From SAR116 cluster bacterium AG-321-A13 (lineage in GTDB: Bacteria; Pseudomonadota; Alphaproteobacteria; Puniceispirillales; Marisalimonadaceae), in the NCBI GenBank assembly GCA_003283875.1, contig QBXD01000005.1, positions 1-51,933 of the forward strand: a stretch of DNA of 51,933 nucleotides, in the 5' to 3' direction. Within the stretch, counting starts at the first letter, position 1. Every line of letters starts with the position of its first letter. The notes beneath the pieces were generated by a model that made no database searches, was not told the DNA's origin, and saw nothing but the letters and a program-made list of their open reading frames with translations. The translations under genes were made by a program, and so were the position numbers. Below, piece after piece: positions 1 through 25,957 of the stretch.

Positions 1-1167
1 GTCACCATGAAAAAAAACTGGAATACCATCTATTATTTTATTCCAATCTATTTTAGTAAGCAAAGTAGAAACTGAGTTAATTAACTTTCCGTTAATAATG
101 CTTTCTACATCACTTTGAGGATATTTAGTATGATATTTTTTTAATCTTTCATACGTTTTCTGAAAATAAAATTTATGACATAGTTCTTTAAAGTTATTAA
201 CATTTTGTTGTGTTTTCCATAAGTTCAAATCTAAAAAATCTAGCAGTTTTTGAAATATATCAATATTATTATTCATATATAAAGTATGTCCCTCTACATA
301 GTTATATGAATAAAATTGTTCCTTATGATCAATAATCACAGGAAATACTTTTTTATTTACTTTAGAGCGTAAAACTCTATTAGTAATAATATTTTTATCC
401 TTGAAGAATTTTATAACTTTTTTATTTACGAAATACAATGTTTCGTCATGTTTGCTAAAATCATAATTCTCATACTTTTTTAATACTTCTTCATAATGTT
501 CTTTTGTTCCAACATCAGTCCAATTAAAGTCTAATGGTTTAACTTTATTTTGAGAAATTAAGAATTCTAAACCGTTTGATATTTGGTGTTCTTCAAAGAT
601 TTTGTCTTTTTTTTCTAATCCTAAAAAAAAGTTTTTATAATCTTTTATAAATCCTAATCCTATAAAAGCCTTATAGCTTTTATTTTCTGTTTTCTTCTTA
701 TCTTTAATCTTTATTATGTAGTCATCAGATATTTTTAAATTACAATACTTATCTGTATCTTCAGATTTAATACTTGATACACCAAGCCAATTTTGAGAAA
801 TATAATTTATTTCCGAATTTTTTTCCCATAAAGTGTCACATGAAACGAAGTAAAAAGGTTCAGAAAGATTTTTTTTACAACTTAAAAGTGAAAGACCTGG
901 CCCACTTCCCTCATCATCAAAATTTTGAACCTTAACAAATTCAAATTGAATTTTAGGATGTGCGATTTCTAAATAATTTTTAACTTGATTTCCTAAATGA
1001 CCAATCGCAATAATAAATTTTGTTTTGTTATCAAATCTGTTTATAATATGAGATATGTTAGCTTTTCCGTTAATTTGAAAAAGTGATTTATTAAGATAAG
1101 TTGACATGTTTCCCATTCGGGAACCTTTACCTGCAGTTAAAATGCAAACAGGTGGTAAAGATATCAT
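1..1167 (-). CDS. Nucleotidyltransferase-kinase (APH-type) fusion, 3' end cut by window edge
   Basis: Reading from the ATG at 1167, 389 codons stay open to the window edge. Residues 9-19 (ILTAGKGSRMG) are the nucleotide-binding loop of a sugar-1-phosphate nucleotidyltransferase, with Lys27, a likely metal Asp111 in VSCDT, and WTDVGT at 216-221. From about residue 240 the sequence changes to a kinase fold: a beta-rich start, a hinge-like segment YNYVEGHTL (289-297), and HGD as the last three residues, which begins the HGDxxxxN catalytic loop of choline/aminoglycoside kinases. The rest of the kinase lies outside the window. Such a fusion could phosphorylate a free sugar or alcohol and then activate it with a nucleotide, like AmgK plus MurU or LicA plus LicC; the substrate is not known. 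Its start overlaps the stop of the cupin gene by ATGA. Confidence 0.8.
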   Translation of the reverse strand, partial: MISLPPVCILTAGKGSRMGNMSTYLNKSLFQINGKANISHIINRFDNKTKFIIAIGHLGNQVKNYLEIAHPKIQFEFVKVQNFDDEGSGPGLSLLSCKKNLSEPFYFVSCDTLWEKNSEINYISQNWLGVSSIKSEDTDKYCNLKISDDYIIKIKDKKKTENKSYKAFIGLGFIKDYKNFFLGLEKKDKIFEEHQISNGLEFLISQNKVKPLDFNWTDVGTKEHYEEVLKKYENYDFSKHDETLYFVNKKVIKFFKDKNIITNRVLRSKVNKKVFPVIIDHKEQFYSYNYVEGHTLYMNNNIDIFQKLLDFLDLNLWKTQQNVNNFKELCHKFYFQKTYERLKKYHTKYPQSDVESIINGKLINSVSTLLTKIDWNKIIDGIPVFFHGD

Positions 1168-1922
1168 TTAGTTATGTGCTCCTTTTGAATTCTCCCATCA
1201 GTACGTTTTGTATCATCTGATATTCTAATTACATCGTTTAGATGTGGTGTAGAAGTTTCATATAATAAAATATCAGTGACAGCTTCAATTCTATGCACCA
1301 CAGGGGGAGATACATCTACGCTTGATAATTCTGAAAACTCAACAGTTGAAATATCATTTGGTAGTAAATCTTTATTATTTGCTTTATTAGATGAATTATA
1401 ATGCAGTAAAGCATCACCTCTAACTAGAAGATTAGTTTCTTGTTTGAAATTATGAAATTGTAAACTTGTCTTTGTACCAGCTTTTATGAAAATTTCCTTA
1501 AATGCGTAAAGTTCATGTTCTCCATTAATCCATAATTCGTGTCCCCATGGTTTTGTAACTTTGTATAATTCATCTTTTTTGTTAACAAAAATACCATTTT
1601 TCTCCAATTTTGAATTTTTTTTACAACCAGAAATTAATATAATGCATTTTCCATTTACTATTTTTAAGTCTAACGGCCTATCAATATTTTCACATTGTAT
1701 AACGGTGTTAACATCAATCGTATTTTTTAACATACTACTATATATTTTGGTCCCATTAGTTAACTCTAATATAAATAAACTGAATGATTTGAGATTTTCA
1801 ATTATGAAATCTTCATTTGTAAGAGAGTTAATAGAGTAATGATATGGTCCATCACACAAAATTTTCTTTTCATTTTTTTTTAATGAAATTAAATTTAATA
1901 TATTTCCACCAAAATTTTTCAT
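1164..1922 (-). CDS. Cupin protein of the mannose-6-phosphate isomerase (type II) kind
   Basis: A 252-residue protein whose C-terminal half is a cupin. KPWGHELW at 124-131 is the signature seen at the start of the isomerase/cupin domain of ManC-type proteins. His157, Glu162 and His210 are plausible metal ligands. The first 120 residues are not recognisable and may be a second, degenerate cupin. The family includes sugar-phosphate isomerases and epimerases, so a role in shaping the sugar handled by its neighbours is likely but not shown. The gene lies in a same-strand run and its TGA overlaps the ATG of the nucleotidyltransferase-kinase fusion, so the two are probably translationally coupled. 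It could also be a sugar-binding cupin without isomerase activity. Confidence 0.7.
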   Translation of the reverse strand: MKNFGGNILNLISLKKNEKKILCDGPYHYSINSLTNEDFIIENLKSFSLFILELTNGTKIYSSMLKNTIDVNTVIQCENIDRPLDLKIVNGKCIILISGCKKNSKLEKNGIFVNKKDELYKVTKPWGHELWINGEHELYAFKEIFIKAGTKTSLQFHNFKQETNLLVRGDALLHYNSSNKANNKDLLPNDISTVEFSELSSVDVSPPVVHRIEAVTDILLYETSTPHLNDVIRISDDTKRTDGRIQKEHITK

Positions 1923-1955
1923 AATATTTATACCTGCTTATTAATTTATCATGGA

Positions 1956-2783
1956 TTAAATTTTATAATTCAATAAATTTGGATTCATTTTGAAAAATTC
2001 ATCATAGAAACTTTTAACATAAACTTGCATCGACCAGTGACTATTAAATCCAAATTTTGTCTTCATCCATTCAAGACCCTCTTCGATATAAAGTTTTATA
2101 TGTTCATCGTATGGTTCAGTTTTTATTAAATCAGATTGCTCTAAAAGAAAACTATCATTTTCGTTCATCATTATTTTCGAAGTGATTGCAACTGCCCATT
2201 CGTTTGCATATGACTTTGATATCATTTCTATATCTACTCCATATCCTCTAAAATTAGACCCATCAAATAAGAAATTTTTTTCTGAAGGGTTTTTTTTATC
2301 GCAAATATCATAGATAAGTTCTTTTTTAATTAGGTAAGCTCCTGGATTTACTGTCCAAAAATATTTTACATTATCTTTTTTAAGAAAAAACTTTTCACCC
2401 CAATCTTCAGAGCAAGGAGATAAGATTCCAACTTTAGGGTGTTCGTCTAGCACATCTAATAAATCTTGCATAAAAGGTTTTTTTTCAAAAACTATATCAT
2501 TGGCGAGTAGAAAAAAGGCAGAATAATCGTCTAGCTTTTTGGATTTATACAAATTAGCAAGTCCATAGTTCATTCCCTGAAAGTATCTTAATCCGTGCGA
2601 TCTTGCTTCATCCCAATCAGCATGCCAGTAAGAATACTTGCATTTTAAAGCGTCATCTGAACCAGACTCAATAACAAATATATCAGTATTGTTTCCATCG
2701 TATTTTAATATTTGTTCGTATAGATTTTCTGTTACAATAGGTAGGTTTCTATTTAGAATCAAAGTAGCAATTTTTTTCTTCAT
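1956..2783 (-). CDS. GT2-like glycosyltransferase
   Basis: A protein of 275 residues from the ATG at 2783. I chose this start because it overlaps the upstream TGA as ATGA and begins directly with the first beta strand (MKKKIATLILNRN); the frame is open further, to 2807. SGSDD near 40-44 and LLANDIVF near 92-99 occupy the places of the nucleotide-binding Asp and the metal-binding acidic motif of GT-A family 2 enzymes, but the second motif is NDIVF rather than a clean DxD. A later stretch (NPGAYLIKKELI) resembles the acceptor-side region of rhamnosyl/galactosyl-type GT2 enzymes. It presumably transfers the sugar made by the surrounding genes. No membrane segment is visible. Confidence 0.7.
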   Translation of the reverse strand: MKKKIATLILNRNLPIVTENLYEQILKYDGNNTDIFVIESGSDDALKCKYSYWHADWDEARSHGLRYFQGMNYGLANLYKSKKLDDYSAFFLLANDIVFEKKPFMQDLLDVLDEHPKVGILSPCSEDWGEKFFLKKDNVKYFWTVNPGAYLIKKELIYDICDKKNPSEKNFLFDGSNFRGYGVDIEMISKSYANEWAVAITSKIMMNENDSFLLEQSDLIKTEPYDEHIKLYIEEGLEWMKTKFGFNSHWSMQVYVKSFYDEFFKMNPNLLNYKI

Positions 2784-3949
2784 TTTAATGTGTCCAACCG
2801 AAAGCATTTAATGTACCTAATTATACTTTCTTTTACGCATTTTTTTAGAAAATTATCCATATTAATATTTTTTGAATTACATGTTTTCATAGCATCCTTT
2901 TTCAATGTTTTAAAATCCTCAGTGGAAAAAATATAATGACCAGCAATGATTGCTTTATCTTCATCGGTTGCCACAGTATCGTTTAGCATCCACTTATCCC
3001 ATTTTTTAGAGTTTAAAGAAATTTCAAGAAAAGTGTCAATTAGATCAGTTCTTTCTATAGATTTAAGTAAATCTAATATACCAATTGTTTCAGCAACCCC
3101 AAATTCTGGAGCAATGTTAGCTGCATGTATTCCCAATTTTGGATACCAAGAAAGAGCTTCATTTGAAAGATAATCTGTATTATGAGCTTTCATAAAAATG
3201 TGATGTTGGTCACAAATCTCTAACATTTTAGGTAATTGAATTTCTGGAGGAATTTCATTTTTTACCCTAATTGGTAAACCAAACGTGCCTACATTTCTAG
3301 TTTCCATTACTTTTGTTCCACCTTGAATAACAACAAATGTTGGTGGTGTTATTTTGTTGTTTGAACAAAATGCATTTAGTTTTTCCAATGTGTAGTCAAG
3401 TTCTTCTTGAGAATTAGTACTTCCGCTTTGTTCTTCTGTACCAATTTCAAAAATAATCTCAGTGCCTAAATTTTTAGATTTTTCCCAGCAAAATTCATAT
3501 AATTCACATATTCTATCCAGAACATTTTCTACACTTATTTTTCCATGAATATCAACACTTGGATCAATATGAATTTTCTGGAAACCTGACATAATGTCAC
3601 ATTCAAACGATCTTTTTGAAGAATCCATAGCCAACTTTAAGCTTAGATTATTTTCTTTTTCATTTTCATTTTGCCATGGTCCTCCATGATCTCTTGAGAG
3701 GATAATCATTCCTTTTTTATCTTTTTTAATTACATAATTTGCAAAATCATTTGTTTTCCAATTTTCAACATAACCACCACCATACTCTGCAGAATCAATT
3801 TGGCGTCTGCTCGCTATTAAAAATATTGGACATTCATAATAATTAGATACCTCAATAGCTGCGTCCACACAATTTTTACTCATAGGACCAACCCCTAGTA
3901 AAGTACATCGATTATTATTCAAAACCCTTTTAATTTTCTCATTGATCAT
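2780..3949 (-). CDS. GatZ/KbaZ-like tagatose-bisphosphate aldolase family protein
   Basis: A protein of 389 residues from the ATG at 3949. The frame is open to 4039, but that would overlap the phosphatase gene by 94 bases, while 3949 gives an ATGA overlap. IFLIASRRQID (42-52), GGGY (57-60), LSRDHGGPW (84-92), GFQKIHID (122-129) and EIGTEEQSG (168-176) match the order of conserved blocks in GatZ/KbaZ TIM-barrel proteins. GatZ is described as the non-catalytic partner of the class II aldolase GatY; no GatY-like gene is visible here, so this protein may act alone or on another substrate. Its position between a KdsC-like phosphatase and a glycosyltransferase suggests it makes or remodels a phosphorylated sugar for the cell surface. 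The family assignment is fairly firm; the reaction is unknown. Confidence 0.7.
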   Translation of the reverse strand: MINEKIKRVLNNNRCTLLGVGPMSKNCVDAAIEVSNYYECPIFLIASRRQIDSAEYGGGYVENWKTNDFANYVIKKDKKGMIILSRDHGGPWQNENEKENNLSLKLAMDSSKRSFECDIMSGFQKIHIDPSVDIHGKISVENVLDRICELYEFCWEKSKNLGTEIIFEIGTEEQSGSTNSQEELDYTLEKLNAFCSNNKITPPTFVVIQGGTKVMETRNVGTFGLPIRVKNEIPPEIQLPKMLEICDQHHIFMKAHNTDYLSNEALSWYPKLGIHAANIAPEFGVAETIGILDLLKSIERTDLIDTFLEISLNSKKWDKWMLNDTVATDEDKAIIAGHYIFSTEDFKTLKKDAMKTCNSKNINMDNFLKKCVKESIIRYIKCFRLDTLK

Positions 3950-4491
3950 ACTGTCCATTCTCCAGATAGTTTGCCCTCTGTTATAGGTAATTTGTCTGGA
4001 TTGAAAGGGGTAAAAAACTTTCTTAGTATATGAAGACATGCCTCTGCAACAGCACGATCACCTCCACGTCTGTTAGTAATAAAATCAGCGTAACTTTTGG
4101 CATTTTCGTCTGCATTATTAGGTGCAATAGAATATAGAACATCTTTCATAACATAATGATCAAAAATACCATCACCCATGTAAATTACTCTTTCAAGTTT
4201 GTACCTTTCTGTAATCCAACTGACTCGGTTTATTGTGCTTACCAAATCCAACTTATAGTTCATATCATGAACTATTCTTTTTTCACTTATAGGGAATCCC
4301 TTTCTATCACCAGTTACAAAACGTATTTCTAATTTATCTCTTAACAAACTTAAAGCATCATTGTCATCTGGTCCAAATACTTTTATAATTTTACCTTTTT
4401 CGGAGTAAAAAAAGTCTCCAGTTGTCATTACTCCATCTACATCAAGTATAAAAATCTCTGGTTCATTTTTATGAGAATCTTTTTTGTTCAT
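3946..4491 (-). CDS. KdsC-like HAD phosphatase
   Basis: A 181-residue protein of the C0-type HAD phosphatases, which remove phosphate from Kdo-8-phosphate and related acidic sugars. Visible motifs are ILDVDGVMTTG (15-25) with nucleophile Asp17 and acid/base Asp19, FVTGDRK (58-64), MGDGIFD (105-111) with metal ligands Asp107 and Asp111, and RRGGDRAVAE (141-150), the typical C-terminal segment of KdsC tetramers. Length fits KdsC. It is the first gene of a run with ATGA overlaps into the aldolase-like gene. By analogy with the Kdo and sialic-acid routes, it likely strips the phosphate left after aldol condensation. No Kdo synthase is visible, so calling it kdsC itself would be too specific. Confidence 0.85.
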   Translation of the reverse strand: MNKKDSHKNEPEIFILDVDGVMTTGDFFYSEKGKIIKVFGPDDNDALSLLRDKLEIRFVTGDRKGFPISEKRIVHDMNYKLDLVSTINRVSWITERYKLERVIYMGDGIFDHYVMKDVLYSIAPNNADENAKSYADFITNRRGGDRAVAEACLHILRKFFTPFNPDKLPITEGKLSGEWTV

Positions 4492-11034: not shown

Positions 11035-12024
11035 CTACTCTGTATAAAAAATCTCTCTATTTTCTTTGGGGGTAATAAATTCATTCTGCAATGTTTGATC
11101 TATAGCCTCGCTAAGTTTATATGAAGGGGAAAAACCTTGGAGTTTGTATTTAGCACTTTTAAACTCCGTAGAAGAGATGAATTTATTGACTCTTATTGAG
11201 CTCACAGGAAGATTTTTTCCACTAATTTTAGAAACTATATCTGCAGCATAACCAACCATAATTCCTAAAAAATAAGGTAAACGAAACCCTACACCTTTCT
11301 TATTTTTAAGTTTATATCGTACTTGTGAAACCAACTCTTTCATGGCTATATCAGGAGTATCTACATAATTATAGAGACCGTATTTTTGCTGACAATCAAT
11401 ACAAGCAACTAAAAAATCTATAAAATTTTTAACGTAAGCCATTGATTTTTTGTTATTCCCATTACCAACCATCAAAAATTTATTAGAAGCAATTTGATTG
11501 AACAAATTAAACACATTTCCTCGATTACCTTCTCCAAATATTACCGTAGGACGCACTATAATAAGTGAGTTATATTTATCCATCTGCCAAGCTCGAAGTC
11601 TTTCTTCTGCTTCAAACTTGGTACGTCCATATTCATTGAAGGGCTTAATATCACCACTTTCATCTGTTCCTGGTTTAGCAAAACCATAAACTGCGACTGA
11701 ACTAGTAAAGATTATTTTTTTTATTCCTTTTTCTTGACACACCTTTATTATGTTTTCAGTGCCATTGACATTAGTTTGCTGATATTCTGATTTGTTACGT
11801 AAATTATCGCTATGAACAGCTGCCAAATGAACAACAATATCGCCTGTGATTACCTTACTTAAAATTTCTAGATTTCGAATATCACCAATTTTACATTTTT
11901 GAGAAAATTGATTACTCATCTTTAAGTCGATTATTTCAAAATCACATTTTTTCAATGAAAGTTGACGACAGAGATTTGTTCCGACAAAACCAGACCCACC
12001 AATAACTGTGATTTTAGACACCAT
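11035..12024 (-). CDS. NAD-dependent epimerase/dehydratase (extended SDR)
   Basis: A 329-residue extended short-chain dehydrogenase. GGSGFVG (9-15) is the NAD(P)-binding loop, FTSSVAVYG (106-114) the Ser/Thr-bearing strand, and Tyr132 with Lys136 (YGRTK) the catalytic pair; VRPTVIFGEGNRG follows as the substrate-loop segment typical of nucleotide-sugar epimerases and reductases. It is last in the manC-rfbH-rfbF-rfbG series, 214 bases beyond rfbG on the same strand. That position suggests it makes the final CDP-sugar, as RfbJ or RfbS does for abequose or paratose. It could equally be a separate UDP-sugar 4-epimerase, because sequence alone does not tell the substrate. Confidence 0.85.
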   Translation of the reverse strand: MVSKITVIGGSGFVGTNLCRQLSLKKCDFEIIDLKMSNQFSQKCKIGDIRNLEILSKVITGDIVVHLAAVHSDNLRNKSEYQQTNVNGTENIIKVCQEKGIKKIIFTSSVAVYGFAKPGTDESGDIKPFNEYGRTKFEAEERLRAWQMDKYNSLIIVRPTVIFGEGNRGNVFNLFNQIASNKFLMVGNGNNKKSMAYVKNFIDFLVACIDCQQKYGLYNYVDTPDIAMKELVSQVRYKLKNKKGVGFRLPYFLGIMVGYAADIVSKISGKNLPVSSIRVNKFISSTEFKSAKYKLQGFSPSYKLSEAIDQTLQNEFITPKENREIFYTE

Positions 12025-12238
12025 TTTTAATCTTACTATAAATAATTTATCTAACCAAAAACTATAATTAATTAAACCCTATCTACTTATTCAAAAATAA
12101 GAAATTTAATAAAAATATATTCAATCCAATAACAGAAATATACATACTAGGAAACGAAAAATTTTTTATAACAAATCCGACACTTTTTCAAATTATCTAA
12201 AACTAATATTCAATCAAAAATTCAGAAAAATTAATAAT

Positions 12239-13291
12239 CTAAATAATCTTATTATATTCTTCGATTTGAGACAATGTGAATAATTTTATATTATCACGTG
12301 TATAATATTCGTGGTACCAATCAACAGTCTTTTTCAACGCCTCCACAACGGACCATTTTGGTTGCCAGTCAAGTAATGTCTTAGCCTTAGATATGTCTAA
12401 CTTTAGGGATTGTGCCTCATGATTACGCTGATTTGTATCAATAGTCCAAGATTTGCCTTTTCCCCAAAGTTTACATATTTTATTTGCTACCCATTCTACT
12501 TTCTTAACATCTGTATCGTTTGGTCCAAAATTCCAGCTTTCTGAGTACATTGTTGGATTATCATATAATTTTTCTGCAAGAGTCATGTAACCAGATAATG
12601 GTTCTAAAACGTGTTGCCACGGCCGTATTGAATTTGGGTTTCTAATCTTGATTTGATTGCCTTTATGTAAACCATTTATAAGATCTGGTACAAGACGATC
12701 AACAGCCCAGTCACCTCCACCAATAACATTCCCAGCTCGAGCAGTAGCTAAACCAATATTGGCTGAGTGATAAAAAGATTTTATGTATGAACTTGTTAAA
12801 AGCTCAGAACATCCTTTACTAGCACTATATGGATCATGCCCGCCCATACTTTCGTTTTCTCTGTAACCCCAACACCATTCTTTATTCTCATAACACTTAT
12901 CTGTCGTTACGTTTACAACTACACGTGTACTATGATTGTTACGAGCCGCTTCTAATAAATTAACTGATCCCATAACATTTGTTGAATAAGTCTCAATAGG
13001 ATTCAAATATGAATCTTGAACTAATGGTTGGGCTGCTAAATGAAAAATAATTTCTGGTTTAAAACAAGAGATTGATTCCTGCAATTTTTCAAAGTCGCGC
13101 ACATCTGAGTACTCACCCTTAAAAAATTTAGATCCTCCCAAACTCACAAAAAGATTTATATTATCTTTAGGTTCTAAAGCATAACCATATACGTCAGCAC
13201 CTTGGTCCATCAGCCAAAGACTTAACCAGCTTCCTTTAAAACCTGTGTGACCTGTAATAAATATACGTTTTTTATTCCAAAATCTGGTCAT
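12239..13291 (-). CDS. rfbG: CDP-glucose 4,6-dehydratase
   Basis: A 350-residue extended SDR that removes water from CDP-D-glucose to give CDP-4-keto-6-deoxyglucose. Diagnostic features are TGHTGFKGSW (13-22), VTTDKCYENKEW (128-139) carrying the dehydratase Thr-Asp-Lys, and Tyr155/Lys159 in YSASK. The later SIRPWQHVLEPLSGY block is typical of RfbG. Length matches the family. It lies 6 bases after the cytidylyltransferase gene, so the two consecutive steps are co-transcribed. The assignment is firm; the only uncertainty is which final dideoxysugar the pathway gives. Confidence 0.95.
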   Translation of the reverse strand: MTRFWNKKRIFITGHTGFKGSWLSLWLMDQGADVYGYALEPKDNINLFVSLGGSKFFKGEYSDVRDFEKLQESISCFKPEIIFHLAAQPLVQDSYLNPIETYSTNVMGSVNLLEAARNNHSTRVVVNVTTDKCYENKEWCWGYRENESMGGHDPYSASKGCSELLTSSYIKSFYHSANIGLATARAGNVIGGGDWAVDRLVPDLINGLHKGNQIKIRNPNSIRPWQHVLEPLSGYMTLAEKLYDNPTMYSESWNFGPNDTDVKKVEWVANKICKLWGKGKSWTIDTNQRNHEAQSLKLDISKAKTLLDWQPKWSVVEALKKTVDWYHEYYTRDNIKLFTLSQIEEYNKII

Positions 13292-13297
13292 AAGTTA

Positions 13298-14068
13298 CTA
13301 CCAAACTCTCCAAGGCGCTTTTTTATTAACCCACATGCTTTCTAATGAATTTTTATCACTCAACGTGTCCATAGGTTTCCAAAATCCTTTATGCTCAAAA
13401 GCCATTAATTCACCTATGTTTGCTAATTTTTCAAGAGGTTCCTTTTCCCAAGAAGTATTATCATTTTTTATATAATTTAAAACTTCTTTATTTAAAACAA
13501 AATATCCTGCATTTATAAGTGTACCATAACCTGGAGGTTTTTCTTTAAAACTTGTTACTATACCATTCCTTATCTCAAGTGAACCAAAACGACCTGGAGG
13601 TTGAGAAGTAGTTACTGTTGCTGCTTTACCATGTTTTTTATGGAAATTAATAACAGAAGTAATATTTAGATCCGTAAGGCCATCACCGTAGGTAAAGCAA
13701 AAAACCTCATCCTCATCAAGGTGTTGTTTAACTCGCAATAGACGTCCACCTGTCATGGTTGACTCACCTGTATCTATAAGTGTAATTTTCCACGGTTCAG
13801 CTCGTTCTCTATGTATCTTTACATCATTTTGTTTTAGATCAATCGTAACATCAGACATATGCAAAAAGTAATTAGAAAAATACTCTTTAATTACATAGCC
13901 TTTATATCCACAGCAAATAATAAATTCGTTGATACCATGATGGGAATAAATTTTCATTATATGCCAAAGAATCGGTCTACCACCAATATTAACCATTGGC
14001 TTTGGCTTTGAATTTGTCTCCTCACTTATCCTAGTACCAAGACCGCCAGCTAAAATAACAGCTTTCAT
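13298..14068 (-). CDS. rfbF: Glucose-1-phosphate cytidylyltransferase
   Basis: A 256-residue enzyme making CDP-glucose from glucose-1-phosphate and CTP, the entry step to CDP-3,6-dideoxyhexoses. LAGGLGTRISEET (6-18) with SKPKPMVNIGG is the RfbF form of the nucleotidyltransferase signature; FTYGDGLTDLN carries the metal Asp, and FWKPMDTLSDKN near the C-terminus is the characteristic end of RfbF. Length equals that of enterobacterial RfbF/DdhA. One base separates its start from the stop of the rfbH-like gene and 6 bases separate it from rfbG. Confidence 0.95.
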   Translation of the reverse strand: MKAVILAGGLGTRISEETNSKPKPMVNIGGRPILWHIMKIYSHHGINEFIICCGYKGYVIKEYFSNYFLHMSDVTIDLKQNDVKIHRERAEPWKITLIDTGESTMTGGRLLRVKQHLDEDEVFCFTYGDGLTDLNITSVINFHKKHGKAATVTTSQPPGRFGSLEIRNGIVTSFKEKPPGYGTLINAGYFVLNKEVLNYIKNDNTSWEKEPLEKLANIGELMAFEHKGFWKPMDTLSDKNSLESMWVNKKAPWRVW

Positions 14069-14069
14069 T

Positions 14070-15401
14070 TTATACTTTCCTATCGATTAAAATCTTTTTT
14101 ATAGTATCTACCATATAATCTAAATGATTTTCTGTTAAACCTGGCCAAACACCAATCCAAAAAGAACTTTCCATTATTTTGTCAGTATTTTTTAAAGTGC
14201 CAGAAATACGATAATTAGTGTCTTTGAATGCTGGTTGTTTAGTTAGGTTACCTGCAAAAAGTAGACGTGAGCCTACTTTTCTTTTTTCTAGTTCTTCTGT
14301 TAATTCTCTACGAGTAATATTAAGCCCATCACGCAAAATCAATAAGTACCCAAACCAAGAAGGTTTTGATCCTGGTGTTGCTTCTGGAAGTATGAAATAT
14401 TTATCTAATCCTTCTCTAATTAGTCTGTTTGTTAAACCAGAAAAATTTGATCTTCGCTTGGCGATAAAAGTATCTAATTTATCAAGTTGACTCAGACCAA
14501 CTGCCGCCTGCATGTCAGATACCTTTAAATTATACCCAATATGACTGTAAGTATATTTATGATCATATCCATAAGGCAAATCCCCTAGTTGCCATTTAAA
14601 TCTCTTTCCACAGGTGTTATCCTTACCAGGTTCACAAAAGCAGTCCCGTCCCCAATCTCTATAACTTTCACATATTCGTGCAAACTTTAATCTGTCTGTT
14701 AAAACAGCACCACCCTCACCCATTGTTATATGATGAGCAGGATAGAAACTCAAAGTAGCAAGATCACCAAAAGTACCCACAGCTTTATCATAACCATCTT
14801 CCATTTCAACTGTCGCACCAAATGCGTCACAACAATCTTCAATTAGATATAAATTGTTATCTTCACAGATCTTTTTTATAGACCGTACATCAAAAGGATT
14901 TCCTAGGCTATGAGCAATCATTATTGCTTTCGTTTTGTTTGTTATTGCATTTTTTACAGCTTGAACATTAACATTATGTGTTGAAATATTAACATCCACA
15001 AAAACAGGGATGCAACCATTCTGTATTATTGGTGCTACTGTTGTCGGGAAACCTGCAGCAACAGTAATTACTTCATCACCTGGTTTAATTCGTCCTTCTT
15101 TTAACTTCTGCGATGTAAGTGTTGAAAAAGCTAGGAGATTTGCAGCAGATCCAGACACTGTAAGCTTAGCTAATTTTTTTCCAAACTTTTTTGCTAGGTT
15201 TGTCTCAAATTGTGAAGCAAAACGACCAGCTGTTAGCCACATATCTAAAGAAGCATCTATCAGGTAACCGCAATCATCAGCATCAAGAACTTTTCCGGAA
15301 GGCGGAATATATGTTTCGCCAGGTACGAATTCTTGCTTCCCAAATTTATCATTAAAGTAGTTTTTACTAGCCTCAATAATTTCTTTTTTTGATGTCATCA
15401 T
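14070..15401 (-). CDS. rfbH: CDP-6-deoxy-L-threo-D-glycero-4-hexulose-3-dehydrase (RfbH/E1 type)
   Basis: A 443-residue member of the aspartate-aminotransferase fold that uses PMP and a [2Fe-2S] cluster to remove the C-3 hydroxyl of CDP-4-keto-6-deoxyglucose. SFYPAHHITMGEGGAV (218-233) has His where aminotransferases have the PLP-binding Lys, the hallmark of this dehydrase. Cys254, Cys256 and Cys264 (C-x-C-x7-C in DWGRDCFCEPGKDNTCGKRF) are cluster ligands, with Cys190 or Cys191 as the likely fourth. The partner reductase E3 (RfbI/AscD/DdhD, a ferredoxin-type flavoprotein) is not in this window. The first two codons are both ATG; either may start. The gene sits 7 bases after manC. Confidence 0.93.
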   Translation of the reverse strand: MMTSKKEIIEASKNYFNDKFGKQEFVPGETYIPPSGKVLDADDCGYLIDASLDMWLTAGRFASQFETNLAKKFGKKLAKLTVSGSAANLLAFSTLTSQKLKEGRIKPGDEVITVAAGFPTTVAPIIQNGCIPVFVDVNISTHNVNVQAVKNAITNKTKAIMIAHSLGNPFDVRSIKKICEDNNLYLIEDCCDAFGATVEMEDGYDKAVGTFGDLATLSFYPAHHITMGEGGAVLTDRLKFARICESYRDWGRDCFCEPGKDNTCGKRFKWQLGDLPYGYDHKYTYSHIGYNLKVSDMQAAVGLSQLDKLDTFIAKRRSNFSGLTNRLIREGLDKYFILPEATPGSKPSWFGYLLILRDGLNITRRELTEELEKRKVGSRLLFAGNLTKQPAFKDTNYRISGTLKNTDKIMESSFWIGVWPGLTENHLDYMVDTIKKILIDRKV

Positions 15402-15408
15402 CGTAAAC

Positions 15409-16842
15409 TCACTTTCGATTATAAATATCCTCGTATCTAGTTATATCATCTTCTTTCAAGTATGATCCTATCTGAACCTCAATCAAATCCATCAAATGTG
15501 TTCCTGGATTTTCCATCCGATGTATCACGTTTTTGGGAACAAAAACTGACTCACCTTCATTTATTAACTTTACTTCATCGCCAATTGTCACTTTTGCAAT
15601 ACCCTTAACTACAATCCAATGTTCTGAGCGGTACTTGTGACTTTGCAAGCTTAATGCACCTCCAGGATTAACACAAATACGTTTTACCTGATAACCATTG
15701 CCAAGCACCAGACTTTCAAACCAACCCCAGGGTCTATGATCTTTTTGAAAAATTTCTGCTTGAGGAATATTTTTTTTCTTCAAATATTCAACAACATCTT
15801 TTATATCTTGCGTCCTATTTTTGTTTGCAACCAGGACTGCATCTGGCATTGCAATCGCAATGATGTTGTTTAGACCTAGACCCACAATTTGAATAGTTGA
15901 TTTTTCTGAACGAAGCAACGTTTCAGTACAATCAATTGAGTGAGCTGTTTCTGACGTCACATTACCATATGAGTCCTTTTGACCCTTTAACCAAACTTCA
16001 CTCCAATTACCTAAATCTGACCATTTGAATGAATATTTAATAACAGCCAAATTTTTAATTCTTTCCATAATGGCAATATCTATACTGATATTTTTTATCT
16101 TTTGCCATAATCCTGGATTGAGAAGATAGAAGCCAAGATCTAATTTAGCAACTCTCAAAGCTTCTTCAGTTAACTTTAAAATCTCATTCTCCAGTTTTTC
16201 AAATGCTGTAATCATATCTACAGCCTTAAACAAAAATATGCCAGCATTCCAAAGATAATTCCCTGCTTGAAACATTTTTTCTGCATTTAAATATTCTGGT
16301 TTTTCAATAAAACATTCTACTGAAGCGACGCCTAAGTGATCTAAATTTTCGCTTGCAACCTCTATATAACCGTAACCAGTTTCAGGATTAGTAGGAGAAA
16401 TTCCAAAGACTACCATTTTACCAGCTTGGACCTGTTCAATACCGGCTTTTATTGCCTTATGAAATTCTTCAGTGTCAGGGATATCATGATCAGACGGTGC
16501 AACTAATAATATAGCATCTGGATTATTATTTTTTGCGAAAATAGATGCAGCAAGAATTGCTGGAGCAGTGTTTTTCCCCTCTGGTTCTAAAATTATATGC
16601 TTAGGAACAATTCCAATTGCTTGTAATTGTTCCGTAACAATAAAACGAAAATCTGAGTGAGTAATTGTAATATGTTTCTCAAATTGTATATCTGTAGAAG
16701 AGGTTAATCTAATAGCAGACTTCTGGAACAAAGACTGTTCTTCAAGCAAACTTGAAAACTGCTTAGGATAGGATTTCCGCGACAAAGGCCATAAACGTTT
16801 TCCGGAACCGCCAGCTAACATAACTGGAACAATTTTTTTCAT
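15409..16842 (-). CDS. manC: Mannose-1-phosphate guanylyltransferase / mannose-6-phosphate isomerase
   Basis: A 477-residue bifunctional enzyme of GDP-mannose synthesis. The N-terminal nucleotidyltransferase starts with LAGGSGKRLWPLSRKSYPKQF (9-29), and FIEKPEYLNAEKM is its second active-site block. The C-terminal cupin, from about residue 365, begins with RPWGWFESL and contains the QSHKYRSEHWIVV metal-ligand segment typical of type II phosphomannose isomerases. Length matches ManC/AlgA. It leads the run manC, rfbH, rfbF, rfbG on the minus strand, and GDP-mannose may also feed the GT10 enzyme after conversion to GDP-fucose elsewhere. Confidence 0.95.
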   Translation of the reverse strand: MKKIVPVMLAGGSGKRLWPLSRKSYPKQFSSLLEEQSLFQKSAIRLTSSTDIQFEKHITITHSDFRFIVTEQLQAIGIVPKHIILEPEGKNTAPAILAASIFAKNNNPDAILLVAPSDHDIPDTEEFHKAIKAGIEQVQAGKMVVFGISPTNPETGYGYIEVASENLDHLGVASVECFIEKPEYLNAEKMFQAGNYLWNAGIFLFKAVDMITAFEKLENEILKLTEEALRVAKLDLGFYLLNPGLWQKIKNISIDIAIMERIKNLAVIKYSFKWSDLGNWSEVWLKGQKDSYGNVTSETAHSIDCTETLLRSEKSTIQIVGLGLNNIIAIAMPDAVLVANKNRTQDIKDVVEYLKKKNIPQAEIFQKDHRPWGWFESLVLGNGYQVKRICVNPGGALSLQSHKYRSEHWIVVKGIAKVTIGDEVKLINEGESVFVPKNVIHRMENPGTHLMDLIEVQIGSYLKEDDITRYEDIYNRK

Positions 16843-20066: not shown

Positions 20067-20583
20067 TGTTATCTCCGTCTATAAATACTCTGAAACTTTC
20101 ATGCACAGATAATAGATTATCAGGGGCTTTTTTATGCCATCTCCACTGGCCATTACTTGGTGTTGGTCCAAAGGCTTTCATTGTAGAAGATGGTATGGTT
20201 TTTAAACTACATTTATATAGTAAGCTTATAAAATGCCCTCTTATATCTCGGTCATTAGCAATTTGACTGCGGACAGTTAATGGTGAATGGTCATATAGCA
20301 CCTGACAACCTAATTCGCCCAACGCAACCTTTTCTATTCTAGTAATTGGATTTTCTTTAAACCTAATTACCCCTCCAGGCAAATGCCAGCCAGGTCCATA
20401 AAACTCATCTGACCTCCAAGTCAGGAGAGTTTCACTATTCTCATTTTTAATAAGTAAATCAACATTAATAATTGGCGTGAGGCTACTAACAAAATGAAAT
20501 ATATCTTTACTTAATCCTTCTTTTGCGTTTTTAACCTCTTTTTTTATTGTTTTAAATGCTAATTGTAATGTGTTATTAATCAT
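20062..20583 (-). CDS. Nudix hydrolase, GDP-mannose mannosyl hydrolase-like
   Basis: A protein of 173 residues from the ATG at 20583; starts at 20613 or 20601 are possible but would overlap the methyltransferase gene more deeply. GPGWHLPGGVIRFKEN followed by VALGELG (roughly 63-92) is a Nudix box whose second half departs from REUxEExG: the usual Arg-Glu pair is missing, as in GDP-mannose mannosyl hydrolases (Gmm), which also have the xxLxELG form. FYGPGWHLPGG and NGQWRWH also fit Gmm-like proteins in polysaccharide loci. Role: cleavage of a nucleotide sugar, for balance or to free a sugar. Its stop overlaps the ATT of the next gene. Confidence 0.8.
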   Translation of the reverse strand: MINNTLQLAFKTIKKEVKNAKEGLSKDIFHFVSSLTPIINVDLLIKNENSETLLTWRSDEFYGPGWHLPGGVIRFKENPITRIEKVALGELGCQVLYDHSPLTVRSQIANDRDIRGHFISLLYKCSLKTIPSSTMKAFGPTPSNGQWRWHKKAPDNLLSVHESFRVFIDGDNN

Positions 20584-21706
20584 CGGTTCTTCTAATCCCA
20601 TTTTCATCTGCAATTAAAATATCACTTATGTTATAATAATTTTTTCTTATTATATTGATAATTTCATCAGAATATGCAGCTCCCATAACCACAACACATT
20701 GAGGACAATCAACATTTAATTGAGATGGTGAAAAGATTTCTAAACCTGTCACAGGGCAAAACTTACCTTGTTTGAAAGGAGCTGAATCTACAACATATTT
20801 GACATATCGATCAGCTCTTATCATTGCCATAATTGATAGCGCTTGATGACCTGCACCCCAGATTACTATTGATCCTTCATAATTTGATAGAAAATCTATA
20901 ATATTACGTGTGTTTTTTTGTTTTTTTGCGTAAATACTGGTAATTTTAGCTTTCTGCCTTCTTCTTACGACTGCTGACAATATATAATCCTTCCAAACTG
21001 AATTAATAGTGATAATTTCTAAACCAACATTTTGTAAAACATTACGTAAAGATTCTTCTGTAAAATAATATATATGATCAACAGTAAATTCTGTATAAAT
21101 ACCATTCTTAAGCATATATCCAAAATTTGGTACTTCAATTAAAGCAATACCATTATCCAAGAGAAGATTTTTTATTTTTGTTAGACCTGCTAACAGATCT
21201 GGCCAATGTTCCATAAAATTAAAACATACAATAGCATCAAATGAAAAGTTCCAATTGTTTACAAACGAACTATCTAAAAATCCTTTTTGTGAATTATATT
21301 TTTTTTTTCTCAAATCATTAAAGTTTTTCATAGAGTTTTCTAAGCCAAATAATTTTTTTGCGCCAGATTCATGAAGTAAATCTAAATACTCTCCTTTGCC
21401 TGATCCAATTTCAAGTATCTTTTTATCGCATAACTCATATTTATTTAGAAATTCTTGAAATTGTTTTAGTCTAAATGCTTTCATATCTGGAGAGTATGCA
21501 ACAGCACGAATTACGTCTTTATAATAACTAACTGGTTCTAAATTATGTTGCACTAAACCGCATTGAGAACATTCATAAATTTCCAAATCAATTTTTATTT
21601 GTGAATCTACTTGATTTTCAAAAAATTGTTGTGCTGAAGGCGGTTGATTTTCAATAGTTAAAATATGTTCACATAAGTTACTTAATTTACAAACACGACA
21701 TTGCAT
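20576..21706 (-). CDS. C-methyltransferase-like SAM enzyme with zinc-binding N-terminus
   Basis: A 376-residue protein with the three-part layout of sugar C-methyltransferases such as TylC3 and NovU. An N-terminal zinc site (Cys3, Cys6, Cys46, Cys49, with QPPSAQQFF between) is followed by a class I methyltransferase core with ILEIGSGKGEYL (97-108) and AIVCFNFMEHW. The C-terminal domain begins near IVIWGAGHQAL (about 284-294). These enzymes methylate a carbon of a keto-deoxy nucleotide sugar, giving branched sugars. Its neighbours make NDP-sugar or nonulosonate-type compounds, which fits. It overlaps the Nudix start by 8 bases, so it is in the same operon. Confidence 0.8.
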   Translation of the reverse strand: MQCRVCKLSNLCEHILTIENQPPSAQQFFENQVDSQIKIDLEIYECSQCGLVQHNLEPVSYYKDVIRAVAYSPDMKAFRLKQFQEFLNKYELCDKKILEIGSGKGEYLDLLHESGAKKLFGLENSMKNFNDLRKKKYNSQKGFLDSSFVNNWNFSFDAIVCFNFMEHWPDLLAGLTKIKNLLLDNGIALIEVPNFGYMLKNGIYTEFTVDHIYYFTEESLRNVLQNVGLEIITINSVWKDYILSAVVRRRQKAKITSIYAKKQKNTRNIIDFLSNYEGSIVIWGAGHQALSIMAMIRADRYVKYVVDSAPFKQGKFCPVTGLEIFSPSQLNVDCPQCVVVMGAAYSDEIINIIRKNYYNISDILIADENGIRRTDD

Positions 21707-21730
21707 AATATACCATTTTTTTAAATTACG

Positions 21731-22375
21731 TTAAATAAAACCATCTTCAAAAAATTTCTTATAATCATCAAAAAATGGTACACCAATTTTTTTTATAAAA
21801 TTATCATTATTTTTATTTTTATATGCCAAAAAATCAACTCCAGAATTTTTAGCAAACTCTACGTCTACCGAACTGTCACCTATTATCAAACACTCTTTTT
21901 TAGAAGAATCTATATTCTTCATACTTGCAAAATAATTATTTTCATGCGGCTTTCTAGTATCTAAATCTCCATCAGCTACAACATTTTTAAAATACTTGGA
22001 AATTTGCAAGTCAAATAAAATTTTTTGAACTAATAAAGTTCCTTTATTAGTGCAAATACATAGCGTAATATTACTTTTAACAAGTTTATCTAGTGCTTTT
22101 CTAACGTTTGGAAATAGTAAATTTTCTTCTACTTTTCTTTTTAAAATTTTCTCTCGTAAACGCTTAAGGTAGTATGTATTTTTTTTTATAGATTGTACAT
22201 TCGAGATTGTTTTTTCAATTAATACCAAACTACCAATTGCCAGAAATGGTTTTATTTTACTAATAGGAAGTGGACGTAAGTTTAATTCCTTTCTAATTTC
22301 ATTTATAACTGAAATAGCAATTGGATCAGAGTCTATTAACGTACCATCCAAGTCAAAAATTATTGTTTTTTTCAT
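21731..22375 (-). CDS. HAD hydrolase, phosphoglycolate-phosphatase (Gph) type
   Basis: A 214-residue haloacid-dehalogenase phosphatase. IFDLDGTLIDSDP at the N-terminus holds the nucleophile and acid/base Asp, CICTNKG the motif II Thr, DTRKPHENNYF the motif III Lys, and LIIGDSSVDVEFAKNSG the metal-binding Asp residues; an alpha-helical cap of about 70 residues lies between motifs I and II. It lies 24 bases after the methyltransferase in genome order and 36 bases downstream of the ThDP enzyme. In a NeuB-containing run it may dephosphorylate the NeuB product or its precursor, as phosphatases do in sialic- and pseudaminic-like routes. Confidence 0.85.
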   Translation of the reverse strand: MKKTIIFDLDGTLIDSDPIAISVINEIRKELNLRPLPISKIKPFLAIGSLVLIEKTISNVQSIKKNTYYLKRLREKILKRKVEENLLFPNVRKALDKLVKSNITLCICTNKGTLLVQKILFDLQISKYFKNVVADGDLDTRKPHENNYFASMKNIDSSKKECLIIGDSSVDVEFAKNSGVDFLAYKNKNNDNFIKKIGVPFFDDYKKFFEDGFI

Positions 22376-22411
22376 AATAACTATAAATTAATAAATTGTA
22401 ATGTTTAGAAT

Positions 22412-24241
22412 TCATTTACATTTTCGAGCTGAAACTGATAATTTGTTAATCTTATTTTCCATTATTTTGTTTAATTTCTCTAAGGGTAATAAAGGTGCCA
22501 TATCCTCCAATGGCATGCTAACTATTTTACCATCTTTTTGAGGCATAGCTGCACATTTAGGTAATAATTTTTCATTTGGGGTTAACCTAACATTTATTAA
22601 AGTTGCTCTTTTATTTTCTTCAAAACGACTTATTGATGGACCGAGCTCATTTATAAACTGAATGTCTTCGTATAAAACGCCAAAAGCTTTAGCAACAGCT
22701 TCCCAATCTGGCATAGTTTGTCCAGCTTCTAAACCAGTGCCAAAAAAACGATTATCAAAATAATTGCTCTGCGTATTTCTAATTGACGCATATCCTTCAT
22801 TATTCATTAGAATTATACAAATAGGTAATTTATTATTAACGACGGTCTGTAATTCTTGTAAGTTCATTGCAAAACTCCCATCACTCTCAATAAGAACAAC
22901 AGATTTACCAATATTTTCACATGAAATACCTATGCTCGCTGGCAATCCATACCCCATTGACCCTAGACCAGAAGTTAAAAAATACTTTTGTCCAGGCTTA
23001 TTTCTAAACATCATATAAAATGCCTCAATAGCTAAGCCTGAACTACCAGTTGCAATGAGCTGATCTTGTTTTAAAATTGAAGATAGCTCCAATACGAAAT
23101 CTTTATGAGAAATTTTACCATCTTTTTCATGCTCGTTGGGAAAATCATTTTGAAATTGATTTTTCAAATTCTCACACTCTCTTACCCAACACTCTATATT
23201 TAATCGAAACTGTTTTTGTTGTAATTTTTTATGTAATTTTTTAATAAAGTATTTTGCGGAGGTACAAAATTTAATAGATTTTGGAATAGGACAGTGAAGC
23301 AGTTGATTTTCATCAATATTTATAATTATTTTTTTTGCAAATGGAGCAAAATTTTCAGGATTATAAGCTGTTAAAACATTATCCAGTGAAGTACCTACAG
23401 CTATTATTAAGTCAGATTTTTGTACAATGAAATTTGCGTGTCTCTGAGCAACTACGCCAGGTCTACCGTAGTTCCATTTATTATTATAATCTAATATATC
23501 ACTAGCATTCCATGTGAAAACTGAGGGCAACCCATAATGCTCAATTAATTTAGTAGTTAAACCCTCACACTTGTCTAACTTAATTCCGTTCCCCCAAAAA
23601 AATAACGGTTTTCTTGAGTTCATAAGTAAATCTATAACTTTTTCTATACTAAAATCATGATTAATGCTTTCCACAACTTTAGAATATTTTTTAGTATTTT
23701 CCACATAAGGAGCTCCTTGCAAGTCTAACGGAACGTCAATCCAAACTGGACCGTTACGTCCACTTGTTGCTTGCTCATAAGCTTCTTCTAAGATTTCTTT
23801 TATTTGATCTGCAGACTCTAATACCTTGCAGTACTTTGTAATTTGATCAACTATTTTAGTAATTTGAACTTCTTGAACGCCAGATTGTCTAAGTTTTTTT
23901 TCTCCAAGCATATCTGCTCTTTTTACTTGGCCAGAAATTACTACTAAAGGTGAAGATTCAATCCATGCACCTGCGACAGCTGTAACCGCATTAGTAGCCC
24001 CTGGTCCTGTTGTTACACAACAAACTCCAATTTTGTTTTTTGCTGATCTTGAGGCGGCTTCTGCAGCTATCGTAGCTCCCTGTTCATGGAAAAAAGCTAT
24101 ATGGTTTATGTTTTTATTTTTGGTAAAAGCATCAATGAGATGCATAGCACCGCCACCAGGAAGAGAGTATACATTTCTAACGCCTTTAGAATGAAAGAAA
24201 TCTGCGATATAATCAGCAACACGATATGTCAAACTTGCCAT
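22412..24241 (-). CDS. Acetolactate-synthase-like thiamine-diphosphate enzyme
   Basis: A 609-residue enzyme of the acetohydroxyacid synthase/benzoylformate decarboxylase fold. FFHEQGA (51-57) carries the conserved catalytic Glu53 of the pyrimidine domain. The ThDP/Mg motif runs from ESDGSF (452-457) to MNN (479-481), and the middle domain is present. In polysaccharide clusters such enzymes need not make acetolactate: YerE, for example, adds a two-carbon unit from pyruvate to a CDP-3,6-dideoxy-4-keto-hexose. The CDP-dideoxyhexose genes lie 6 kb away on the same strand, so a YerE-like role is conceivable. Equally, it may act with the adjacent NeuB-like enzyme, whose stop is one base from this start. 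Confidence 0.85.
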   Translation of the reverse strand: MASLTYRVADYIADFFHSKGVRNVYSLPGGGAMHLIDAFTKNKNINHIAFFHEQGATIAAEAASRSAKNKIGVCCVTTGPGATNAVTAVAGAWIESSPLVVISGQVKRADMLGEKKLRQSGVQEVQITKIVDQITKYCKVLESADQIKEILEEAYEQATSGRNGPVWIDVPLDLQGAPYVENTKKYSKVVESINHDFSIEKVIDLLMNSRKPLFFWGNGIKLDKCEGLTTKLIEHYGLPSVFTWNASDILDYNNKWNYGRPGVVAQRHANFIVQKSDLIIAVGTSLDNVLTAYNPENFAPFAKKIIINIDENQLLHCPIPKSIKFCTSAKYFIKKLHKKLQQKQFRLNIECWVRECENLKNQFQNDFPNEHEKDGKISHKDFVLELSSILKQDQLIATGSSGLAIEAFYMMFRNKPGQKYFLTSGLGSMGYGLPASIGISCENIGKSVVLIESDGSFAMNLQELQTVVNNKLPICIILMNNEGYASIRNTQSNYFDNRFFGTGLEAGQTMPDWEAVAKAFGVLYEDIQFINELGPSISRFEENKRATLINVRLTPNEKLLPKCAAMPQKDGKIVSMPLEDMAPLLPLEKLNKIMENKINKLSVSARKCK

Positions 24242-24242
24242 T

Positions 24243-25745: not shown

Positions 25746-25957
25746 TATTTTACCTTTCTTCACAATTAAATATTACAAACGCATTTATTTAAAAATTTTA
25801 CAAGAAAATTAAATATTACTGAAAATATAGCATATTTTTTTTTAGACGATAATATTTAAAAACATATATGATTAAAAATATATTTATTTCCAATGAAATT
25901 GGTTTAAGTTACTTAATTATGCTAGTTAAAAATATTTGATAATATTTAAGGTGTTAC

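Follow-up and report, generated by a model that had tools for sequence, protein, structure and literature searches.

Very probable synthesis and activation of a rare sugar of surface polysaccharides by a conserved five-gene operon of a SAR116 cluster bacterium

Analysis of the window, i.e., the whole 51,933-nt stretch of contig QBXD01000005.1 from SAR116 cluster bacterium AG-321-A13, revealed that five genes at its beginning are an operon conserved across phyla, whose products very probably synthesize a rare sugar and activate it for use in surface polysaccharides. The sugar is probably made by inverting one carbon center of a sugar phosphate and not by aldol condensation. On balance, we favor the view that a conserved pathway with the steps set out below has these genes at its core. 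The original prediction of one operon for an activated sugar is supported, and the operon does include genes for a phosphatase and a kinase-nucleotidyltransferase together with a conserved transferase-like gene. It also knew of no described pathway with this set, and we likewise found no description of the pathway or gene set in the open-access literature, an absence that is weak evidence because it concerns open-access papers only.

Organization and conservation of the operon

The five genes were confirmed on the minus strand, overlapping or closely spaced, in the place and with the families originally proposed, although some of the profile matches (phosphatase and transferase) fell below threshold (Table 1). 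The open frame of the GatZ-like gene reaches 4039, but homologue starts place its start at Met28 of the window frame, and the corrected gene overlaps the phosphatase gene by 13 bases, which is the median in its relatives. For the third gene, a start at 2783 is more likely than one at 2807 and gives an ATGA overlap with the GatZ-like gene; the fusion and cupin genes are also joined by an ATGA overlap. Since base 1 of the window is the start of the contig, only part of the fusion gene is present: the sequence breaks off after the kinase HGD motif, and the missing C-terminus was located on contig C60 of this genome, where genes for an AroE-like dehydrogenase, a C-methyltransferase, and a probable flippase come next. 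The context is that of a polysaccharide cluster both in the window and on C60. Scans for promoters and terminators returned chance-level matches only.

Table 1. Genes of the operon in the window
Feature	Coordinates	Strand	Basis
KdsC-like C0 HAD phosphatase, operon gene 1	3946..4491	-	TIGR01670 68 bits; invariant motifs; KdsC/YrbI nearest structures
GatZ/KbaZ-like protein, probable ketose-phosphate C4-epimerase	2780..3958	-	PF08013, conserved residues, fold model
Putative glycosyltransferase (GT-A-like), operon-specific family	1956..2783	-	Conserved ~274 aa family; sub-threshold GT2-type Pfam matches
Long PMI-type cupin (252 aa), probable sugar isomerase	1164..1922	-	PF01050; ligand set
Nucleotidyltransferase-kinase fusion, C-terminally truncated	1..1167	-	NTP_transf_3; homologue motifs; C-terminus on C60

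GTDB genomes yielded 340 GatZ-like relatives, and conservation was analyzed in the loci of the best 80. The exact five-gene order recurred in 32 of these 80 loci, spread over many phyla, with median intergenic gaps of -13, -4, 9, and -4 bases, so that relatives of these genes do occur together elsewhere, contrary to one of the cases that the original prediction had named as refuting it. Chance adjacency was rejected because the same order recurs across phyla and the linkage also holds from the side of the fusion gene. Specifically, among 398 genomes of the phylum, the GatZ-like gene was found in 7 and the fusion gene in 8, with all 7 GatZ-like genomes carrying the fusion. Distance-matrix correlations were 0.85 between the putative glycosyltransferase and the GatZ-like protein, 0.60 between the GatZ-like protein and the phosphatase, and 0.43 between the fusion and the GatZ-like protein; that between the fusion and the phosphatase was weak (0.20). 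Across the genus and order (61 genomes), the GatZ-like protein was found in its own genome only, plus two marginal matches, and this near-absence hints at horizontal acquisition. Prochlorococcus and Pelagibacteraceae single cells are among the bacteria that carry the gene set, and members are annotated as "tagatose-6-phosphate kinase" or "non-catalytic aldolase subunit." Complete sets occur, for example, in Polynucleobacter and Chlorobium ferrooxidans, and the culturable carriers include Marinomonas and Massilia.

Many aquatic viruses carry a reduced set that retains the cupin, the fusion, and GatZ. A single-sequence search of viral contigs gave no match; the viral relatives were recovered using an alignment of distant relatives as the query. 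The fusion gene was found in 76 of 80 viral contigs, and viral loci reached through it contained GatZ in 25 of 26 cases. A HAD phosphatase of a different type lay no farther than 2.5 kb from the fusion gene in 51 of the 80 contigs, and a phosphatase therefore seems to be needed. The marine virus AG-345-E15 has a separate GHMP-type set beside the GatZ-type set.

The GatZ/KbaZ-like protein

The GatZ-like protein matched PF08013 at 42.7 bits, above the curated cut-off of 26.7. E. coli GatZ and KbaZ, its nearest characterized relatives, are C4-epimerases that convert fructose 6-phosphate to tagatose 6-phosphate, for which a retro-aldol/aldol mechanism has been predicted (PMC11907403). All four residues of the predicted base and metal site of GatZ (Asp87, His88, Glu171, and His257) are aligned in the window protein, and D90, H91, and H259 of the latter are invariant across 69 aligned relatives, while the position of Glu171 is Asp in some members of the family. 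With the predicted metal site and base kept and the barrel not degenerate, we rejected an inactive barrel, one of the cases that the original prediction had named as refuting. In comparison, the family-specific Lys279, Glu44, and Cys20, which are among the active-site residues singled out for E. coli GatZ (PMC11907403), are replaced by Asn, Ile, and Gly, respectively, so the substrate or reaction may differ from C4-epimerization of fructose 6-phosphate.

The structure model of the protein (pLDDT 95) had GatZ as its best match (2fiq, Z 36.8), to which it aligns structurally at about 17% identity. Tagatose 4-epimerases and UxaE followed at Z of about 27 over 317-345 residues, and small class II aldolases did not exceed Z 26.8, with about 265 residues aligned; the Z values of these two groups are tied, but GatZ and the 4-epimerases align over more of the model's length. 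We consider the protein, from its sequence and modeled fold, a probable ketose-phosphate C4-epimerase. The original prediction had instead assigned it an aldol step, i.e., a true aldolase would condense an aldehyde with a ketose-type donor into a new sugar phosphate, on which a phosphatase, a kinase, and a nucleotidyltransferase would then act in turn according to Kdo and sialic acid logic. Such a reading could draw on the TIM-barrel superfamily shared with class II aldolases and on the three changed active-site positions, yet we judge it unlikely: not only are the best and fuller-length structural matches GatZ-type proteins and C4-epimerases, but the predicted metal site aligns with the His-Glu-His of GatZ rather than the three-histidine site of class II aldolases (PMC11907403), and one study, as cited in that paper, found no aldolase activity for GatZ.

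The remaining enzymes and the proposed pathway

The phosphatase scored 68.1 bits against TIGR01670, below the cut-off of 106.95, which makes it a relative of KdsC rather than a member of the subfamily; Pfam Hydrolase_3 was matched above its cut-off. Its D17xD19G and G106D107GxxD111 motifs, i.e., C0-type HAD motifs I and IV, are invariant in a 14-member alignment, and the nearest solved structures are KdsC/YrbI phosphatases. The transferase-like protein of the window had no significant family match in a profile search. It belongs to a family of about 274 aa present in 50 of the best 80 genome loci, of which 4 of 14 members gave sub-threshold GT2-type Pfam matches (E 0.018-0.026), and its glycosyltransferase label is putative.

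The cupin exceeded the curated cut-off of PF01050 only weakly (24.6 versus 23.6 bits), and its matches to solved structures by sequence were oxalate decarboxylases and quercetinases. Q155, H157, E162, and H210 were found in 119 of 119 aligned cupins and form the Gln-x-His, Glu, His ligand set of PMI. Judging by these residues and the weak PF01050 match, the cupin is probably the isomerase of the pathway; the original prediction had assigned it no step. The fusion matched NTP_transf_3 above the cut-off (34.6 bits), and in a full-length homologue (L123) the C-terminal kinase matched PF01636 (APH) at 29.2 bits against a cut-off of 23.2. Motifs of both domains are intact in the homologues: HGD and DW are invariant in a 60-member alignment, and the Asn of HGD(x4)N is nearly so. 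The matches listed by a fold search with the whole fusion belonged to the transferase domain, with sugar, LicC-like, and MurU-like transferases fitting about equally well, and a sequence search of the kinase domain against solved structures returned no useful relative.

We propose that the GatZ-like enzyme would first invert C4 of a ketose phosphate by metal-dependent retro-aldol/aldol chemistry, the simplest substrate being fructose 6-phosphate, which would yield tagatose 6-phosphate. The KdsC-like phosphatase would then take off the phosphate and thereby pull the reversible epimerization forward, and the PMI-like cupin would turn the ketose into an aldose, with tagatose to talose fitting PMI stereochemistry. 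Next, the kinase domain, which we infer to act on the anomeric hydroxyl of a sugar, would phosphorylate that position, the nucleotidyltransferase domain would add a nucleotide, and the transferase-like protein would transfer the sugar. In this subtype, the AroE-like dehydrogenase and the C-methyltransferase, both outside the window, probably modify the sugar further. That the product is D-tagatose or D-talose in particular is doubtful.

Activation of a ketose or of a reduced or cyclic polyol instead of an aldose would leave an alditol, ketose, or cyclitol on the nucleotide, with the cupin serving for epimerization or binding and a keto sugar being reduced by the AroE-like dehydrogenase. In most long-cupin loci, as well as on C60, the AroE-like gene lies next to the fusion gene, and its product keeps the catalytic-residue regions but not the serines of the shikimate carboxylate site, which, together with LicC (a phosphocholine handler) among the near fold matches, would suit this scheme. 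However, the cupin ligands are PMI-like throughout, and the AroE-like gene is missing from most loci and from the viral sets, which places it outside the core; we therefore hold activation of a polyol or ketose to be improbable. A catabolic or salvage set lying by accident in a polysaccharide region is very improbable even though relatives of the GatZ-like protein on Enterococcus and Klebsiella plasmids adjoin sugar PTS genes and fructose-6-phosphate aldolase or transaldolase, and a catabolic operon was rejected on the presence of the nucleotidyltransferase, co-conserved with the transferase-like gene, and on the polysaccharide cluster of the window; apart from the flippase-like protein, neither the five genes nor those read downstream on C60 encode a transporter.

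Relevance and relation to known systems

The gene set occurs in more than 100 viral contigs and in species-level genomes numbering from dozens to hundreds, and probably hides a surface sugar of common aquatic bacteria and their viruses. The viral copies suggest a role for this sugar in the surface chemistry between host and virus or in the decoration of virions or DNA. The GatZ family would gain a biosynthetic role in a pathway whose roughly five enzymes are open to direct in vitro study. A bolder and tentative idea is that a GatZ subfamily with a changed active site makes, in many phyla and aquatic viruses, a monosaccharide that falls outside the C4-epimers known so far by a new pathway, with an AroE-like dehydrogenase and a C-methyltransferase shaping it further in one subtype; if true, this sugar would be a new glycan building block.

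Among the closest parallels are E. coli GatZ/KbaZ and the phosphorylation-epimerization-dephosphorylation route to D-tagatose (PMC11907403), which share with our operon the Pfam family, the fold, the predicted Asp87, His88, Glu171, and His257, and the logic of an epimerase combined with a HAD phosphatase. In our operon, however, the HAD enzyme is KdsC-like, and there are additional genes for a kinase-nucleotidyltransferase and a transferase-like protein. The Kdo and sialic acid pathways likewise have a KdsC-type phosphatase that dephosphorylates the sugar ahead of its activation with a nucleotide. In those pathways the sugar is converted directly to its CMP form, whereas the free sugar here is apparently re-phosphorylated before nucleotidylation, and the five genes include no PEP-dependent synthase; a NeuB-type gene lies in a different part of the cluster in the window (24243-25763). 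AmgK-MurU, the anomeric kinase and uridylyltransferase of MurNAc recycling, also pairs an APH-type kinase with a nucleotidyltransferase, and MurU is among the fold matches, but here the two are one protein in transferase-kinase order, encoded in an operon with the GatZ-like protein, cupin, and phosphatase. Finally, in heptose activation (GmhA, HddA, GmhB, and HddC) a sugar phosphate is similarly remodeled, anomerically phosphorylated, dephosphorylated, and nucleotidylated, but by different enzyme families, HddA being a GHMP kinase and GmhA having a different isomerase fold.

Gene order and continuation of the operon

The original prediction had placed a minus-strand set of five sugar-pathway genes here, and the set was present as stated, with matching families (see table). 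The start of the GatZ/KbaZ-like gene was corrected because homologues start at Met28 of the window's protein, which gives an overlap of 13 bases with the phosphatase gene, equal to the median among relatives. The window spans the entire contig C5, and the fusion gene is truncated at base 1, where this contig ends.

Operon genes in transcription order
Gene product	Coordinates	Strand	Order
KdsC-like phosphatase	4491-3946	minus	first
GatZ/KbaZ-like protein	start 3958 (corrected)	minus	second
Putative glycosyltransferase	start probably 2783	minus	third
Cupin, 252 aa	1922-1164	minus	fourth
Nucleotidyltransferase-kinase fusion (incomplete)	1167 to contig start	minus	fifth

With a profile of the fusion protein, the missing C-terminal part was located at the beginning of C60, another contig of the same genome (the C5-C60 junction is unsequenced); it is followed there by genes for an AroE-like dehydrogenase, a methyltransferase (a relative of which bears the C-methyltransferase C-terminal domain), and a flippase-like membrane protein (judged by eye). 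AroE-like and methyltransferase genes had been seen earlier 3′ of the fusion gene in relatives (e.g., locus L117), and their presence on C60 therefore bears out a prediction. True AroE has a catalytic Lys and Asp and binds the shikimate carboxylate through two serines. The regions bearing this Lys and Asp are kept in the AroE-like proteins, and the two Ser positions are Asn and Gly in the copy from this genome. While the cupin is ~115 aa long in most loci, nine loci have an AroE-like gene, mostly with a ~250-aa cupin or a long cupin-fusion protein; the window operon, given its cupin length and the gene on C60, is of this second subtype (long cupin plus AroE-like).

Conservation in genomes and viruses

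An alignment-based scan of GTDB genomes yielded 340 GatZ-like relatives, of which we analyzed the best 80, spread over many phyla; the catabolic branch may be among the other 260. Counted as same-strand neighbors within 8 kb, and with some loci cut by contig ends, the fusion gene was present in 59 of these 80 loci, a cupin in 63, the phosphatase in 59, and the transferase-like gene in 50. The methyltransferase family occurred in 35 of the 80. The exact gene order, which the original prediction proposed to look for elsewhere, recurred in 32 of the 80. Among 398 genomes of the phylum, seven had the GatZ-like gene, eight the fusion gene, and seven both (five of these from one genus). Family distance correlations were highest between the transferase and GatZ-like families (0.85) and lowest between the fusion and phosphatase families (0.20).

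Viral contigs contained 132 GatZ-like relatives. The best 80 loci had the fusion gene in 76 cases, a cupin (separate or fused to the fusion protein) in 73, a KdsC-type phosphatase in only 5, and another HAD type in 58 (51 of them ≤2.5 kb from the fusion gene). The reverse search, from the fusion gene, found GatZ in 25 of 26 viral loci, the lone exception being cut at its end. All these counts, for genomes and viruses alike, are drawn from loci that resemble the window most closely and do not amount to an unbiased survey. Marine virus AG-345-E15 (L009:1-10861) has two sugar-activation sets: the operon block and, next to it, a GHMP-type kinase, a second cupin, a nucleotidyltransferase, and epimerases (labels by eye).

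Variant loci were also observed. A Sinorhizobium plasmid (L005:8016-11492) has GatZ-like, cupin, DegT aminotransferase, and HAD genes with no fusion gene nearby, and is perhaps an amino-sugar variant. Six Balneolaceae loci (L160, L161, L162, L171, L180, and L185) have a GatZ-like protein of the same subfamily without the other operon genes, and three from candidate phyla Liptonbacteria and Parcubacteria (L172, L176, and L177) have a GatZ-like gene and a ~160-aa cupin, no fusion gene, and a nucleotidyltransferase-like gene upstream.

Predicted chemistry

By gene deletion and expression, E. coli GatZ and KbaZ were shown to produce tagatose 6-phosphate from fructose 6-phosphate; GatZ has predicted metal ligands His88, Glu171, and His257 and a predicted base, Asp87 (Palur and colleagues, PMC11907403). 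In our alignment, the window protein has equivalents of all four, and GatZ Lys279, Glu44, and Cys20 are replaced by Asn, Ile, and Gly, changes shared with Enterococcus and Klebsiella plasmid relatives that adjoin PTS genes. Its predicted model (pLDDT 95.0) aligned best with 2fiq (Z 36.8) and 3txv (Z 33.6). Tagatose 4-epimerases and UxaE gave a Z of about 27 over 317-345 residues and class II aldolases up to 26.8 (~265 residues for small ones), values close enough to be treated as tied; the case for an epimerase therefore consists of aligned length, the GatZ match, and published activity. On these grounds, we favor C4-epimerization over the net aldol synthesis originally predicted. The substrate may be other than fructose 6-phosphate.

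HAD motifs are kept across the phosphatase family, whose closest solved relatives are KdsC-type. The ligand pattern of mannose-6-phosphate isomerase (Gln-x-His, Glu, and His) is kept in all 119 aligned cupins. Some viral proteins are long enough for a cupin/kinase-transferase fusion, which suggests that the cupin's product passes to the kinase. The fusion protein has a confident predicted model, and its homologues have intact transferase and kinase motifs; RmlA, GalU, LicC, and MurU match its transferase domain about equally, so that nucleotide and substrate are not readable from this domain. The third gene may, on slight grounds, encode a glycosyltransferase; given its conservation and close co-variation with GatZ, its protein probably acts on the pathway product.

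Polysaccharide surroundings

The left half of the window is a surface-polysaccharide region with CDP-dideoxyhexose, GDP-mannose, and NeuB-type genes and a chain-length protein. Positions 11035-16842 and 22412-24241 hold CDP-3,6-dideoxyhexose-type genes (dehydratase, nucleotidyltransferase, and DegT aminotransferase), a gene for a ManC-type protein, and, farther along, one for a TPP-dependent enzyme; the product is possibly a branched, yersiniose-like sugar. At 20576-25763, a NeuB-type synthase-cupin domain fusion adjoins a TPP enzyme, an HAD phosphatase, and a C-methyltransferase, forming a second unusual sugar gene set. As for the five-gene set, apparently without earlier description, it is fairly safe to regard it as a real, widespread nucleotide-sugar operon made of known enzyme families.
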